A stretch of DNA of 64,000 nt from an uncultured Pelagibacteraceae bacterium (GTDB taxonomy: Bacteria; Pseudomonadota; Alphaproteobacteria; Pelagibacterales; Pelagibacteraceae): contig CACEFK010000005.1 in assembly GCA_902558835.1 (NCBI GenBank), positions 1 through 64,000 of the forward strand, written 5' to 3'. The notes beneath the pieces are model-generated. The model searched no databases and was not told the origin of the DNA. It saw nothing but the letters and a program-made list of their open reading frames with translations. Below, piece by piece: positions 7,925 through 36,644 of the stretch; within the stretch, counting starts at the first letter, position 1, and each line of letters starts with the position of its first letter. Position numbers and translations under genes: made by a program.

Positions 7925-9103
7925 TTATTTATTTTGCATTGAAAATTGTATCAGATCAATATTTTTTGACTTAAATCCAGCTTCACAATAAGAAAGATAA
8001 AACTCCCACATTCTTTTAAATGTTAGATCAAAACCTTGATTTTTTATTAAATCCCATTTTTTTAAAAAATCTTTTCTCCATATAGCTAATGTATTTGCAT
8101 AATGATCAGCATAAGAAATATATGAATTTATAGTTAAACCGTTATCTGAAACATAACGATTAATACTATTTTTATTTGGTAAAAAACCACCTGGAAAAAT
8201 ATATTTTTGAATAAAATCTTGTTTGTTTTTGTATCTATCAAACAATCTGTCATCGATGGTAATTGCTTGAATGGCAGCTTTTCCGCCATCAGATAAATTT
8301 GTTTTAATAGTATTAAAATAACCCTCTAAATAATTTTGACCAACAGCCTCAATCATTTCTATAGACGCTATAGAATTGTATTTGCCTTTAAGATCTCTGT
8401 AATCTTTTATTTCAATATTTACTTTTTCGTTTAAACCACAATTAAAAATTCTTTCTTTTGCGTATTCAAATTGTTTTTTTGATATTGTAATACAGTCTAG
8501 TTTTACATCGTATTTTTTACCTAAGTACTCGGCAAAACCACCCCAACCACATCCTATTTCTAAAACTTTGTCACCATTATTTGGTTTTATTAGATCAATT
8601 AATTTTTGATATTTGTTATTTTGAGCATCAGAAAGATTTTTAGTCTTTTCATCAAAAATAGCACTAGAGTAGGTAAGCGTATTATCTAACCAAAGAGAAA
8701 AAAAATCATTACCTAGATCATAATGTTTAGCAATATTTTCTTTGCTTCTACTTTTTGTATTTTTGATTATTTTATTTTTTACAAAATTAATTATTGGAAA
8801 ATCAAGAAGTCCTGAGAATTTATATATTACTTCTATATTTCTAGCGGTTAATTCAATTAAATTTGATAAGTTGTCAGTTTCAAATTCACCTCTCATGTAG
8901 CTCTCAGCAAATCCAATACTACCGCCTCTAATTAAATTATAATTAAAATCTGGTTTTTTGATTGAAATATTTGCATGCAATTTTTCATTTGGATTTCCAA
9001 ACTTTAAAACTTTTCCATCATGTGTAGTGAGCTCTAGATAACCATGACTTATTTTATTAAGAAATTTAAAAACTAATTTATCTGCGGCGTTATTTGAAAA
9101 CAT
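7925..9103 (-). CDS. Cyclopropane-fatty-acyl-phospholipid synthase family methyltransferase
   Basis: A 392-aa S-adenosylmethionine-dependent methyltransferase that acts on the double bond of unsaturated acyl chains in phospholipids. It shows ENIAKHYDLGNDFFSLWLD near 120, LTYSSAIF, the SAM-binding motif VLEIGCGWGGFAEYLG near 180, and SIEMIEAVG near 248, all typical of CfaS. The product could be a cyclopropane, or a methylated unsaturated chain as made by UfaM-type enzymes on the way to furan fatty acids; the adjacent DUF1365 and FAD-oxidoreductase genes favour the second. It overlaps the DUF1365 gene by 1 nt, so the two are translationally coupled. Confidence 0.9.
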   Translation of the reverse strand: MFSNNAADKLVFKFLNKISHGYLELTTHDGKVLKFGNPNEKLHANISIKKPDFNYNLIRGGSIGFAESYMRGEFETDNLSNLIELTARNIEVIYKFSGLLDFPIINFVKNKIIKNTKSRSKENIAKHYDLGNDFFSLWLDNTLTYSSAIFDEKTKNLSDAQNNKYQKLIDLIKPNNGDKVLEIGCGWGGFAEYLGKKYDVKLDCITISKKQFEYAKERIFNCGLNEKVNIEIKDYRDLKGKYNSIASIEMIEAVGQNYLEGYFNTIKTNLSDGGKAAIQAITIDDRLFDRYKNKQDFIQKYIFPGGFLPNKNSINRYVSDNGLTINSYISYADHYANTLAIWRKDFLKKWDLIKNQGFDLTFKRMWEFYLSYCEAGFKSKNIDLIQFSMQNK

Positions 9104-11104: not shown

Positions 11105-13975
11105 TTATGCTGCATCTTCTTTAAACTCATCCATGCTAGGACAAGTACAAAAAATATTTTTATCTCCGTATACGTTATCAACTCTTGCAACCGGAGGCCA
11201 AAATTTATTTGCTTTTAAGAATTTTGCAGGATACGCAGCTTGCTCTCTTGAATATTTATGACTCCATTCATCTGAAGCTAATTCAATATCTGTATGAGGT
11301 GCATTTTTAATTGGATTATCAACTTTATCAAATTTTCCAGAATTTATCATATCTATTTCTGATTTAATGCTAATCAAAGTATCACAAAATCTATCTAGTT
11401 CAGACAAGCTCTCACTTTCAGTTGGTTCAATCATCATTGTGCCTGCTACTGGCCATGACATTGTTGGTGCATGAAAACCATAATCGATCAATCTTTTAGC
11501 TATATCTTCTTCGGTGATCCCTGTTTCAGTTTTAATAGATCGAATATCAATTATACATTCATGAGCTACATTTCCGTTTGAACCTTTATAAAGAATTGGG
11601 TAATGATCTTTAAGTCTATGAGCTATATAATTTGCATTTAATATTGCAACTTGAGTAGCTAATTTTAAACCCTCAGAACCCATCATTTTAATATACATCC
11701 AAGAAATTGATAAAATACTTGAGCTTCCCCAAGGTGCTGCTGAAACTGCTCCTATTCCTGTAGCAGGTCCACAGTCTTTAACAACTGGATGATTAGGCAA
11801 ATAAACTTGTAAATGTCTTTTACACGCGATTGGTCCCATTCCTGGTCCTCCACCACCATGAGGAATACAGAATGTTTTATGTAAGTTAATGTGGCAAACA
11901 TCAGGACCAAAATTTCCAGGTCTTGCTATACCAACAAGCGCATTTAAATTTGCACCATCCATATAAACTTGGCCACCATGTTTATGAATTAACTCACATA
12001 TATCTGTGATTTTTTCCTCAAATACTCCGTGAGTAGATGGATAAGTGACCATTAATGCTCCAAGATTTTCAGAATGTATTTCTGCTTTTTTCTTTAAGTC
12101 CTCAAAATCAACATTTCCTTCTTTATCACAATCAACAACGACAACTTTCATTCCTACCATTTGTGCACTAGCAGGATTGGTTCCATGTGCTGAGCTAGGT
12201 ATTAAACATATATTCCTGTTTTCTTCACCTCTATCTAAATGATATTTTCTAATAACCATTAATCCTGCATATTCCCCTTGAGCGCCTGCATTTGGTTGAA
12301 GCGAAACACCAGAAAAACCTGTAATTGATCTCAGCCAATTTTTAAGATCAGTGAATAAATCTCTATATCCTTCCATCTGCTCTATAGGCACGAACGGATG
12401 AGGCTCAGCTAATTCTCTCCACGAAATAGGTATCATTTCTGCAGTAGCATTTAATTTCATAGTACATGAACCAAGTGCAATCATAGTTCTATTTAAAGCT
12501 ATATCTTTATCTTCTAACTTTTTTAAATATCTGAGCATCTCAGTTTCTGAGTGATATGAATTAAAAACAGGATGTTCTAAATATTTTGAAGTTCTTAATA
12601 AATTTTTTGGTAAATTAGGTAAACTTACTGTTGGGTCTTCTTTTTTAATCGACTCAGCTGCATTAAAAATTTTTAGTAATTGATTTACTCTATAAACGTT
12701 TTTCTTTTCATCAAAAGAAACTGCCAACATTTCAGAATTTACTCTTCTAATGTTTACCTTTTGATCCAAAGCATTTTTATAAATTTGATCAGTTTTATCT
12801 TTTGTTACAATTGTAACAGTATCAAAGAAATGATCTGAATAAATTTCATATCCAGATTGTTTCAATTTATCTGCAAAATTTTTAGCTAATTGAGAAACTC
12901 TCTCAGCAATAGTTTTTATTCCATCTGGTCCGTGGTAAATGGCATATGCAGCTGAAACAATTGCTAACAAAGCTTGGGCAGTACAAATATTACTTGTAGC
13001 TTTATCTCTTCTTATATGTTGTTCCCTAGTTTGTAATGATAATCTGTAAGCTTTGTTTCCATGTCTATCAACAGAAACTCCTACAATTCTTCCAGGCATA
13101 GATCTTTTATATTCATCTTTAGTTGCAAAGAAGGCTGCATGAGGTCCACCGTAACCCATTGGAATTCCAAATCTTTGAGAACTTCCTACAGCAATATCTG
13201 CTCCTAGTTCTCTTGGTGTTTTTAATTTAGCAAGTGCTAATAAATCACAAGCTAATATTGCTTTACCATTTTTTTTATGAATTTTACTTATTGCTTCACT
13301 AGGATCTTTTATATCTCCTAAAGTTCCCGGATATTGTAATATACCACAAACTAAATCTTCCTTTAATTGGTCTAATACTTCATCTTCATTACCAACAAGT
13401 ACTTTTAATCCCATTGGTTCTGCTCTTGTTTGAATTACATCGATTGTTTGTGGGTGACAATTTTCTGAGACAAAAACTAAATTACTATCTTTTTTATTTA
13501 ATCTATGACTTAATCCCATTGCTTCTGCAGCTGCTGTTCCTTCATCTAATAAAGACGCATTTGCAATATCCATTCCTGTAAAATCAACTATCATTTGTTG
13601 GAAATTAAGCAGCATTTCTAATCTTCCTTGAGCTACCTCGGGTTGATAAGGTGTATAAGAAGTATACCAACCTGGATTTTCTAAAATATTTCTTAGAATT
13701 ACGTATGGTGTGTAAGTTCCATAATAACCCATTCCTATAAAGTTAGAGTAAATTTGATTTTTTTTTGAAATTGCTTTTAATTTTCTTAATGCTTCATATT
13801 CTGAGTTAGACTCGCCAATATTTAATTCATCTTTCAATTGGATTTTTTCTGGAACTGTACTTTTGATTAAATCATCAAGTGATTTGTAATTAAGTTCCTT
13901 AAGCATTTTATTTTGATCTTCATCTGAAGGTCCAATGTGCCTTTTTAAAAAATCTTTTTGAGAATTATGTAACAT
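11105..13975 (-). CDS. gcvP: Glycine dehydrogenase (decarboxylating), P-protein
   Basis: A 956-aa single-chain P-protein of the glycine cleavage system. It decarboxylates glycine with pyridoxal phosphate and passes the aminomethyl group to the lipoyl arm of GcvH. Both halves of the fused alpha/beta architecture are present: the N-terminal half opens with FLKRHIGPSDEDQN, and the C-terminal half carries the PLP lysine in HINLHKTFCIPHGGGGPGMG. The glycine-rich GGGGPGMGPI loop is intact. It is the last gene of gcvT-gcvH-gcvP, sharing TAATG with gcvH, and lies under the glycine riboswitch upstream of gcvT. Confidence 0.97.
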   Translation of the reverse strand: MLHNSQKDFLKRHIGPSDEDQNKMLKELNYKSLDDLIKSTVPEKIQLKDELNIGESNSEYEALRKLKAISKKNQIYSNFIGMGYYGTYTPYVILRNILENPGWYTSYTPYQPEVAQGRLEMLLNFQQMIVDFTGMDIANASLLDEGTAAAEAMGLSHRLNKKDSNLVFVSENCHPQTIDVIQTRAEPMGLKVLVGNEDEVLDQLKEDLVCGILQYPGTLGDIKDPSEAISKIHKKNGKAILACDLLALAKLKTPRELGADIAVGSSQRFGIPMGYGGPHAAFFATKDEYKRSMPGRIVGVSVDRHGNKAYRLSLQTREQHIRRDKATSNICTAQALLAIVSAAYAIYHGPDGIKTIAERVSQLAKNFADKLKQSGYEIYSDHFFDTVTIVTKDKTDQIYKNALDQKVNIRRVNSEMLAVSFDEKKNVYRVNQLLKIFNAAESIKKEDPTVSLPNLPKNLLRTSKYLEHPVFNSYHSETEMLRYLKKLEDKDIALNRTMIALGSCTMKLNATAEMIPISWRELAEPHPFVPIEQMEGYRDLFTDLKNWLRSITGFSGVSLQPNAGAQGEYAGLMVIRKYHLDRGEENRNICLIPSSAHGTNPASAQMVGMKVVVVDCDKEGNVDFEDLKKKAEIHSENLGALMVTYPSTHGVFEEKITDICELIHKHGGQVYMDGANLNALVGIARPGNFGPDVCHINLHKTFCIPHGGGGPGMGPIACKRHLQVYLPNHPVVKDCGPATGIGAVSAAPWGSSSILSISWMYIKMMGSEGLKLATQVAILNANYIAHRLKDHYPILYKGSNGNVAHECIIDIRSIKTETGITEEDIAKRLIDYGFHAPTMSWPVAGTMMIEPTESESLSELDRFCDTLISIKSEIDMINSGKFDKVDNPIKNAPHTDIELASDEWSHKYSREQAAYPAKFLKANKFWPPVARVDNVYGDKNIFCTCPSMDEFKEDAA

Positions 13976-14355
13976 TAGCTAGCACTCTCCTTTGCAAATT
14001 TATCGTATTCTTCTTTGTTCATAAGACTATCCATTTCGGATTGATCTTTCATTTTCAGTTTAAAAAACCATGCTGAACCCTCTGGATCTTCATTAATTTT
14101 AGAAGGATCATCTACAATAGCTTGATTAGTATCTACTACTTCACCACTAACTGGAGTATAAACATCACTAGCAGCTTTCGTAGACTCTACCACTCCTGCA
14201 GTACCATCTTTTTCAACATTAGATCCTTTTTCAGGAAGTTCTGCAAAAACGATGTCGCCGAGCATTTCTGTTGCATGTTTTGTAATTCCTATTGTGGCTA
14301 CATCTCCCTCTAAAGTAATCCACTCATGTTCTTTTGAAAATTTTACTTCACTCAT
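13975..14355 (-). CDS. gcvH: Glycine cleavage system H protein
   Basis: A 126-aa lipoyl carrier that shuttles the aminomethyl intermediate between P-, T- and L-proteins. The lipoylation lysine is the second Lys-containing position in [20 protein letters not shown], the normal GcvH context, and the [16 protein letters not shown] start is typical. Length is normal. The stop of gcvT and the start of gcvH overlap as TAATG, as do gcvH and gcvP, so the three are translationally coupled. Confidence 0.97.
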
Positions 14356-15458
14356 TAATTTACTCCTTTCACATAATTTTTTTTATAAAATGGTAATGCG
14401 CAAACATTTGCTGGATGTTTTTTCCCTCTTACCTCAAGCAAAATTTTAGTATCAACTTTTGAAAACTCTTTATTAACATAACCCATCGCTATAGGACCAT
14501 TTACACTTGGCCCAAAAGTGCCACTAGTTATCTCACCGATTTGTGTATCTGTATCATCAAATATTTTAGTTTTTTCTCTAGCAATCAATCTACCTTCGGG
14601 TTTAATCCCTACTCTTATTTGGCTTGCTCCATCTTGCATTTGGTTCATAATTTTTTTCGATCCAATAAAACCTCCATTTGATAATCTAGATTTTGAGATT
14701 GCCCATCTAAGGTTTGCCTCAACTGGTGTTTTATTAATATCTAATTCGTGACCATATAAACATAATCCAGCTTCTAATCTCAAGGTATCTCTTGCCCCAA
14801 GTCCTATAAGTTGTGCTCCCTTTTTAATTAAATTTTCAACGAATTTTTCAGCTTTATCGTTAGAAATTGAAATTTCAAATCCATCTTCCCCTGTATAACC
14901 TGATCTTGTAACAAATAATTTTTGATTATCAGAATCGAACCAATTTCCTGTCATAAAATTTAGTTGATCAACCCCATTTATAATTGAGTTTAAAATTTCA
15001 ACAGACTTAGGTCCTTGAATTGCTATCAAAGATCTATTGTTATCTAAATTCATTTTAAATTTCGAACCTAGTAAATTAGATAAAATCTCAAAATCTTTAT
15101 CTTTGCATGCAGCATTTAAGATAATTAAATACCCCTCCTCTATTTTGGTGATGATTAAATCATCATAAATTCCCGCATCCTCATTCATTAAAAAACTATA
15201 CTTAGAGCAGTTTTGTTTTAGATTTTTTAAATCTAATGGAAAAATTTTTTCTAATTCATCTGTTAAAGTTTCATCGCCATATATGAATAGCTGGCCCATA
15301 TGTGATACATCAAATATTCCAGAGTGGGATCTTGTGAATTTATGCTCTTCAATAATACCTTTGCTATACTGAATAGGCATTTCATAGCCAGCAAATTCAA
15401 CAAACTTAGCGTTGTTGCTCTGATGAAGTTTATTTAGTGATGTTTTTTTTATTTCCAT
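14355..15458 (-). CDS. gcvT: Glycine cleavage system T protein (aminomethyltransferase)
   Basis: A 367-aa tetrahydrofolate-dependent aminomethyltransferase that releases ammonia and yields 5,10-methylene-THF. Visible are [33 protein letters not shown] near residue 45, the catalytic-region [11 protein letters not shown] near 190 and [19 protein letters not shown] near 225. It is first in the gcvTHP operon. The ATG at 15456-15458 lies inside a 12-nt segment (AGAGTTAATATG) that is perfectly complementary to the linker between the two riboswitch aptamers upstream, which suggests that glycine controls start-codon access. Confidence 0.97.
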
Positions 15459-15473
15459 ATTAACTCTTTTTTG

Positions 15474-15613
15474 CCCCCTCTGTCTTGGTGCCTGAGAGAT
15501 TTGCTCCTTCGGCGAGAATAATTCTCTTTCCAGAGTTAATATGTACGGTCCTTTTGCCTGAGAGTTTCCGGGGTGGTTGCTCCTTCGGCGCTACAAAAGT
15601 AGTCTCTCCCGTA
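15474..15613 (-). promoter_or_regulatory. Tandem glycine riboswitch upstream of gcvTHP
   Basis: Read on the minus strand, two glycine aptamers follow each other. The first (about 15613-15544) is closed by UACGG/CCGUA and contains CUAC-UUUU-GUAG, GCCGAAGGAGCAA and CUCUCAGGCAAAAGGAC. The second (about 15535-15478) is closed by CUCUG/CAGAG and has GCCGAAGGAGCAAAUCUCUC and AGGCACCAAGAC. These are the conserved core strings of the class. The linker is only about 8 nt. Linker bases 15543-15532 (CAUAUUAACUCU) can pair over 12 bp with the gcvT start region (15467-15456), and this pairing shares CUCU with the second aptamer's closing stem. Glycine binding should therefore expose the start codon (an ON switch). 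Confidence 0.95.
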
Positions 15614-15620
15614 TATAAAT

Positions 15621-15649
15621 TTATAACACATTTAAAATGTTTATGTGAA
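15621..15649 (-). promoter_or_regulatory. Probable promoter of the gcvTHP operon
   Basis: On the minus strand, a TTCACA -35-like hexamer (15649-15644) is followed after 17 bases by TTATAA (15626-15621). This places the transcription start near 15614, exactly where the first riboswitch stem begins at 15613. It lies between the gcv leader and the end of the EamA gene. Confidence 0.6.
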
Positions 15650-15651
15650 AT

Positions 15652-16524
15652 TTATTTAGCTAGTTTTTTAACAAGTAATGGAGACAAAAACTGTATAACT
15701 ACTGCTGTTATAACTACTGCTCCCCCAAAAAGTACAGTAAGTGGCGGGTTTTCGTTTGCAAACATCCATGCCCACAAAGGTCCTAGAACAGCTTCAGTCA
15801 ACATAATGATTCCAACAAATGCTGAAGGAGTTGATCTTGCTCCGATAGTTATAAGTATGAAGCCAAGTCCAACTTGAAAAAATCCTGCAATAAAACCTAA
15901 AAAAATATCATTTGTTGAAACCAAAATACTCGGTGACATAAACAAACCTATTAGTGTTGCAAAAATTCCAGCAACTAATTGTAAAGGTATCATGTCGACT
16001 TTTGGATATTTTCTGACAATTAAAATTAAGATTGCAAATGATATCGGCATGATAAATGCAACTAGGTTTCCAGTCATTTGACCTGGTGTTAGTGAACTTC
16101 CTAACATTAAAATGATGCCAACTACTGCTGTAATAATGCAAGTTAATGTAATTTTAGAAATTTTTTCCTTTAAAAATACATAACCAAAAATCGCTAAAAA
16201 CAAAGCTTGAGTTTGAATTATAAAGTTTGCATTAGCTACTGTTGTTTCATACATAGCAAATACATAGCTAGCAAATCCAATGGATAAAATTATACCTCCG
16301 AATAAACCTGGAATTCCAGATTTATAAAGAGCACTAAAAATTTTTCCTTTGTAAGTAAAGATTAAAAAAATTGTAATTACTCCAATAAAGAAAAGTGATC
16401 TCCAAAATAATATTTGCCAAAGTGTAGATCCGTCAAAAGACTTAACGATTAAACCTCCAAAACTTAATGCACAAGCTCCTAAAAAAACTAAAAAAGGACC
16501 TGGTATTTTTGATAAAAAATTCAT
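15652..16524 (-). CDS. EamA-family (DMT superfamily) permease
   Basis: A 290-aa membrane protein with about ten hydrophobic helices arranged as two EamA repeats. The first starts at FLVFLGACALSFGGLIVKSF; the second has ISFAILILIVRKYPKVDM and the characteristic FVGIIMLTEAVLGPLWAWMF in the last third. DMT permeases export or import amino acids, nucleotides or other small metabolites; the substrate is not readable from sequence. Its start overlaps the stop of pxpC by 1 nt, so it belongs to the pxpB-pxpC transcript and may carry a related compound such as 5-oxoproline or an amino acid (inference). Confidence 0.88.
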   Translation of the reverse strand: MNFLSKIPGPFLVFLGACALSFGGLIVKSFDGSTLWQILFWRSLFFIGVITIFLIFTYKGKIFSALYKSGIPGLFGGIILSIGFASYVFAMYETTVANANFIIQTQALFLAIFGYVFLKEKISKITLTCIITAVVGIILMLGSSLTPGQMTGNLVAFIMPISFAILILIVRKYPKVDMIPLQLVAGIFATLIGLFMSPSILVSTNDIFLGFIAGFFQVGLGFILITIGARSTPSAFVGIIMLTEAVLGPLWAWMFANENPPLTVLFGGAVVITAVVIQFLSPLLVKKLAK

Positions 16525-36516: not shown

Positions 36517-36644
36517 AATTTTCTTTTTTAAATCACTTTAAGACTACTTATTGTAAAAGTTATCCACATGTCCACCAAATGTTGTTTTCGATGTTCACGT
36601 TTTGATTCACTTTTGATTCAATTACGGACTCAAAATACAACCTC

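Follow-up and report, generated by a model that had tools for sequence, protein, structure and literature searches.

How does a tandem glycine riboswitch control gcvT when its second aptamer closes only about 20 nt before the start codon? We addressed this question at a locus in the window, a 64,000-nt stretch of DNA from a SAR11 genome that groups with Ca. Pelagibacter. Here gcvT (14355-15458, minus strand) is the first gene of gcvT-gcvH-gcvP, with gcvH at 13975-14355 and gcvP at 11105-13975 on the same strand. Its ORF of 367 aa, which has ATG as the first codon (15458-15456) and bears the NCBIfam name GcvT, is 100% identical to the best named GcvT match, from strain SCGC AAA795-A20. Upstream, a whole-genome search found two adjacent RF00504 matches on the minus strand, aptamer I at 15536-15621 (70.5 bits) and aptamer II at 15470-15543 (52 bits), both above the gathering cut-off of 32 bits; a scan restricted to the window listed aptamer I alone. 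Thus, the segment that an initial annotation of the bare sequence had called an inter-aptamer linker does lie between two glycine aptamers. The window also contains the SAR11_0636 sRNA (RF01827) at 36552-36642 on the minus strand (89.3 bits; gathering score, 67).

The SAR11 gcvT and glcB elements were reported between 2007 and 2009 as (tandem) glycine riboswitches (PMC2704228, PMC5069720, PMC2211319). The excerpts of these three papers that we drew on do not describe a helix between linker and start region, or an expression platform, for either gene. Our literature search, which covered titles and the beginnings of abstracts and did not extend to Tripp 2009 or Torgerson 2020, found this SAR11 helix nowhere named.

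The linker itself offers a candidate platform. As first noticed in the initial annotation, positions 15543-15532 of the minus strand (CATATTAACTCT) are the exact reverse complement of positions 15467-15456 (AGAGTTAATATG) over 12 nt. In the RNA, the anti-start strand CAUAUUAACUCU (15532-15543, minus strand) consists of the inter-aptamer linker and the 5′ strand of P1b, the closing stem of aptamer II. Its target, AGAGUUAAUAUG (15456-15467, minus strand), lies 64 nt away and comprises the AUG (15458-15456) and the purine-rich ribosome contact. The assignment of CUCU to the 5′ side of P1b also held, as CUCUG (15535-15531, CTCTG in the DNA) pairs with CAGAG (15482-15478), and CUCU is common to P1b and the anti-start helix.

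Taken alone, the complementarity in the window is not clearly beyond chance. Three 12-nt inverted repeats spaced 50-100 nt occur in the window; its dinucleotide shuffles (n = 20) average 1.0, and two of them reach three. With both places fixed, shuffling the linker by dinucleotides 20,000 times gave a 12-nt run in 8 cases. The two further repeats in the window, at 9053/9142 and 26547/26629, are at about chance level. One explanation is that the repeat arose by chance or acts in DNA, for example as a protein-binding site, rather than as an RNA helix; about one such 12-nt repeat is expected by chance per window of equal length and composition, and the window count alone is insufficient to exclude a chance origin. 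This doubt is removed by comparative evidence across SAR11.

For the comparison, we collected RF00504 matches from overlapping draws of genomes, finding them in 66 of 101 genomes of the genus, 156 of 197 of the family, 124 of 197 of the order and 180 of 289 of the class. The loci analyzed are a subset of these matches, picked to span many genera. We could parse 222 of the 230 as tandem riboswitches: 159 of 161 in the SAR11 set, where some loci overlap in place, and, among other Alphaproteobacteria, 63 of 69. The 133 distinct SAR11 leaders were split by simple motifs into 100 gcvT leaders and 31 glcB-like leaders; two (L116 and L121) fell unclassed. For covariation we used 92 of the 100 gcvT leaders, spanning 11 genera (GTDB codes), after dropping eight that were alike in the linker and the next 30 nt. 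A tree was built from the coding sequences of 91 of these, with L082 left out as too short. Start codons assigned automatically were wrong for some leaders of both groups (for example L005, L052, L069 and L125; L189, L195 and L199), and we used a fixed 42-nt stretch in place of these starts when comparing duplex energies.

A check for compensatory changes in other SAR11 genomes had been set beforehand, and the gcvT leaders passed it. In a MAFFT alignment that was not fitted to structure, 97.1% of the 1104 linker:start cells form standard pairs, and 6 of the 12 pairs have changed on both sides. Double-changed cells number 87, compared to a shuffled mean of 31.3. For four measures, none of 500 shuffles was as high as observed; for the number of pairs changed on both sides, 2 of 500 were. 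Sliding the register reduced pairing to 36-51%. Pairing extends through the CUCU part (column 16, 91/92; column 18, 92/92; column 19, 87/92; column 20, 81/92). In P1b itself, UCUG/CAGA is paired in 91-92 of the 92 leaders at each position and, being invariant, shows no covariation, while the fifth, outer C-G pair is present in only 30 of 92.

Cell counts include inheritance, and only a handful of the double changes are independent on the tree. We also simulated the two sides evolving independently along it. The simulations gave a mean of 87.0% paired cells and a maximum of 95.5%, and none of 300 reached the observed value. A second measure, the fraction of leaders in which 11 or more of the 12 pairs form, is 92.3% in the data and 51.8% on average in the simulations, and here the data are not beyond every simulation (maximum, 94.5%). 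Independent contrasts per column are underpowered, with 0.6-2.5 concordant pairs on average and almost none discordant; in columns 8 and 9, most contrasts show the linker changing and the start staying the same. Duplex energies also favored cognate partners (-14.0 kcal/mol, compared to -10.3 kcal/mol for non-cognate ones, over 23 linker types; no value as low arose in 20,000 permutations). Since many linker types are alike, the own start is the best or tied-best partner for only 6 of the 23. Lastly, among named loci chosen as close relatives by GcvT similarity, the upstream region was readable in 78 of 80, and in all 78 the riboswitch is present, with a run of 10-13.

The linker sequence varies between genera and yet fits its own start region. 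The linker/start combination CATATTAACTCT/AGAGTTAATATG is found in most of the window's genus, while CATAATAACTCT/AGAGTTATTATG occurs in genera g3, g6, g13 and part of g4, and, with wobbles, in the rest of g4 and in g8. Genus g7 and leader L128 of g9 have AATAAACTCT/AGAGTTTATT. Leader L134 of g12 has ATTAAAACTCT/AGAGTTTTAAT, and the other three g12 leaders fit less well. The aligned helix ends at the start codon in 73 of the 92 leaders (72 AUG and one GUG) and just upstream of the AUG in 16 of the remaining 19. Where the AUG has moved, as in most of g2 and in L009, the helix is retained: most g2 leaders place GTAATAACTCT opposite AGGGTTATTAC, with the AUG a few nucleotides further on. In L123 (g5), CAA in the linker pairs with an apparent UUG start, assigned from the reading frame. 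The helix is weak or missing in L135 and L125 (both with about 0 expected pairs) and in L133 and L144.

These data make a chance or DNA-level origin of the repeat hardly credible. Chance is rejected on the covariation and the tree simulation. Departures from Watson-Crick pairing are more often G-U (48) than unpaired (32 of 1092 cells), as expected of RNA, and leaders whose AUG has moved still have the target in the start region; on these two grounds we rejected a DNA operator or inverted repeat. Thus, the linker:start helix is well supported as a predicted, conserved and co-varying structure across SAR11 genera. Since paired mutations have preserved the match in many SAR11 species, the linker probably prevents translation as long as glycine is absent.

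We favor, with a probability of roughly 0.8, a glycine-activated translational tandem riboswitch in which the inter-aptamer linker is the anti-start strand and competes with P1b. Without glycine, the 12 nt of linker and P1b 5′ strand would pair with the gcvT ribosome contact and start codon. In this predicted OFF state, P1a would be kept beside the 12-bp helix, the P2 stem of aptamer II and part of its P3 would be retained inside it and P1b would be dissolved. Glycine binding would stabilize aptamer II and let P1b hold on to CUCU, aided by the P5 pseudoknot and inter-aptamer contacts; the ON state would thus contain P1b (UCUG/CAGA) and P5. The helix would lose its strongest third, or never form, allowing the ribosome to load. 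We infer the glycine-dependent release, its ON direction and the action on translation.

Folding predictions agree with the OFF state. The unconstrained minimum free energy fold of the gcvT leader in the window contains the entire 12-bp helix, and the P1a strands UACGG (15609-15613, minus strand) and CCGUA (15548-15544) remain paired beside it. The helix has a probability of 0.99 in this leader and a median probability of 0.98 over the 100 gcvT leaders. Across these leaders and without ligand, the OFF ensemble has a median advantage of 9.5 kcal/mol over a fold in which P1b has formed and the start is free. That is a large gap for the ligand to bridge by itself, so the model has to invoke tertiary contacts or kinetic control. 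In equilibrium snapshots taken as the gcvT leader of the window is extended, P1b has a probability of 0.92-0.99 when 2-14 nt past it have been made and is replaced by the helix at 16-22 nt, an order that suggests ligand-gated strand displacement. This clean succession is not general, since the median P1b probability at +6 nt is only 0.38 over 96 leaders.

The initial annotation had proposed that P1b and the anti-start helix exclude each other. This holds for CUCU/AGAG and fails for the remaining 8-9 A/U-rich pairs, which in the nearest-neighbor model are compatible with P1b across a bulge of about 14 nt. P1b together with these residual pairs lies a median of 5.7 kcal/mol above the OFF state, and in at least one leader 3.9 kcal/mol below it. 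Such a fold would also suit a helix that is real and not controlled by ligand, acting as a brake on gcvT initiation, either constitutive or temperature-sensitive, alongside bound aptamers. AGAG could moreover be kept simply as a ribosome contact. We consider such a brake unlikely, as the CUCU part, which is incompatible with P1b, is kept, and the helix is made from the aptamers' own linker.

The same residual pairing would be compatible with a glycine OFF switch, in which the ligand-bound aptamers would make the linker available to the start codon. We regard this as quite improbable. The helix draws its strongest part from P1b, a stem that the ligand should stabilize, and gcvT is a glycine catabolic gene; a 2009 paper by Tripp reportedly calls the SAR11 riboswitch glycine-activated in its title. 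OFF-type glycine riboswitches do occur, upstream of sodium-alanine symporters, according to excerpts of PMC13104608, and the same excerpts report that 81% of tandem glycine riboswitches precede glycine catabolic genes and are supposedly ON switches (Torgerson 2020, via PMC13104608).

The P5 pseudoknot probably joins the aptamer I P3b loop to the tract after P1b, here CCCC (15570-15573, minus strand) and GGGGG (15474-15478, minus strand), both located by inspection. By inspection, too, the two tracts change together, as CCCC/GGGG, CCC/GGG, GCUCA/UGAGC in L133 (g12) and CUCUC/GAGAG in L189. P5 is frequent in ON, aminomethyltransferase versions of the riboswitch. A P5 pseudoknot of glycine riboswitches is described in the part of PMC13104608 that we drew on. 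GAGGGGG could be taken for a ribosome contact, which is unlikely: because the G-tract is complementary to the C-tract in P3b and changes with it, it is probably not one. Transcription attenuation was rejected as well, as the leader in the window has no terminator-like site (none at 15380-15760) and little room, with about 20 nt from P1b to the start. At the other end, a candidate -10 element, TATAAA (15620-15625, minus strand), picked out by eye, would put the RNA 5′ end near P1a; a consensus promoter scan of the window found none.

The genome's second tandem glycine riboswitch (L002, G000:C14:14392-14545, minus strand) precedes glcB, which encodes malate synthase G. It has the layout of the gcvT switch with a different sequence: the linker GCATAACACT lies opposite AGTGCTATGC with one internal mismatch. 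In 28 of 31 glcB-like leaders the linker is CATAACACTCT, which leaves at least one internal mismatch; L045, L072 and L131 have CATATTAACTCT-like linkers instead. The mean duplex energy is -11.05 kcal/mol in glcB-like leaders, compared to -14.42 kcal/mol in gcvT leaders. Over 10 glcB-like linker types, cognate pairing was favored by permutation (p = 4e-4), with the own start the best partner in 3 of 10. Expected-pair values, whose computation skipped four gcvT and two glcB-like leaders, gave fewer than six linker:start pairs in 8 of 29 glcB-like leaders. The two unclassed glcB-type leaders, L116 and L121 (both g4), have runs of only 4 and 6. The internal mismatch may set a different glycine threshold for glcB.

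We did not find the linker:start architecture beyond SAR11 in three tests covering 62, 55 and 63 leaders of other Alphaproteobacteria. In the longest-run test, where runs are rough because some automatic starts are wrong, the median was 6 and 1 of 62 leaders reached p<0.01, compared to 71% of the 119 SAR11 ones. Between P1b and the start, a distance that is rough for the same reason, the median was 57 nt in other Alphaproteobacteria and 20 nt in SAR11. Expected linker:start pairs had a median of 0.04 and a 90% quantile of 4.6 in the 55 others, compared to a median of 12.0 in 96 SAR11 gcvT leaders. One of the two batches of other Alphaproteobacteria was hand-picked mostly from small genomes and should therefore favor chance A/U pairing. 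Two leaders may be weak parallels: L194 (G460:C35), the one at p<0.01, with an A/T-rich linker, and L195 (G533:C5), a compact gcvT leader with an A-rich linker and a probable UUG start near P1b.

The third test concerned linker composition. Linkers of the other Alphaproteobacteria are mostly GA-rich and kink-turn-like: with the first two bases excluded, GA occurs in 58 of 63, compared to 1 of 100 SAR11 gcvT and 5 of 33 glcB-type linkers, and GGA in 40 of 63, compared to 0 of 100 and 0 of 33. Judged by this sequence proxy (GA/GGA only), SAR11 gcvT leaders lack the leader-linker kink-turn/P0, which excerpts of PMC5666159 state for >90% of tandem switches. Its lack does not bar membership among tandem glycine riboswitches, as the kink-turn is not universal and is apparently absent in N. 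gonorrhoeae. Environmental SAR11 reads begin at the first nucleotide of P1 or at most 15 nt upstream (PMC5069720, in part), and many SAR11 upstream regions have, by eye, TTGAC and -10-like elements right before P1a. If transcription starts at about P1a, as these observations suggest, the P0 strand is probably not transcribed in SAR11. SAR11 thus appears to have given up the usual leader-linker kink-turn, freeing the linker.

We also looked for gcvT genes lacking the riboswitch, to serve as a natural control, by searching 40 RF00504-negative genomes of the SAR11 family with GcvT from the window, and obtained no usable set. Only G008, G035 and G130 (a 52-aa fragment) had GcvT at >60% identity, with the N terminus outside the match in all three; other entries among the matches listed were at ≤31% identity, and three genomes had no GcvT match at all. 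The riboswitch seems to be absent where the glycine cleavage gene is absent. A GcvT match at >60% was lacking in 37 of the 40 RF00504-negative genomes, and many genomes are incomplete.

Taking the two genes together, we lean, with rather less confidence than for the gcvT mechanism itself, towards a broader reading. SAR11 may have swapped the near-universal leader-linker kink-turn for an anti-start linker, such that a single stretch of 13-16 nt plus UCU acts at once as spacer, as one strand of the aptamer II stem and as the entire expression platform. With a mismatch-tuned version controlling malate synthase, cells that rank among the most abundant on Earth would then have two switches that differ in strength, for two fates of glycine carbon. 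Genome streamlining could have folded the expression platform into the linker in this way.

Riboswitch aptamers are conserved and expression platforms usually cannot be aligned; in SAR11 gcvT leaders, covariation across 11 genera (GTDB codes) allows the platform to be read. The mechanism offered here makes glycine control explicit for SAR11, which the literature available to us in part describes as unable to make glycine and serine. Because control by the helix would act after transcription, caution is warranted when gcvT transcripts are taken to indicate glycine repletion, as in the part of PMC5069720 that we drew on.

How does this switch compare with known systems? The B. subtilis gcvT switch shares tandem aptamers and glycine-ON control of gcvT. 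Unlike in SAR11, its platform is a Rho-independent terminator, and its linker and leader form a kink-turn/P0 that is needed for function (PMC5666159, in part). The nearest described mechanism is that of the N. gonorrhoeae gcvT ON riboswitch, as presented in excerpts of PMC13104608. There, too, tandem aptamers precede gcvT and act on translation, the kink-turn/P0 is apparently absent, a P5 pseudoknot is possible and the sequence immediately preceding the gcvT start is proposed to be masked, in the absence of glycine, by nucleotides of aptamer II. The two differ in the origin of the masking strand, which in N. gonorrhoeae is proposed to come from P3a, P3 and P1 of aptamer II (PMC13104608, in part), whereas in SAR11 it would be the linker with the P1b 5′ strand, in a leader where P1b lies about 20 nt from the start, and would usually cover the AUG itself.
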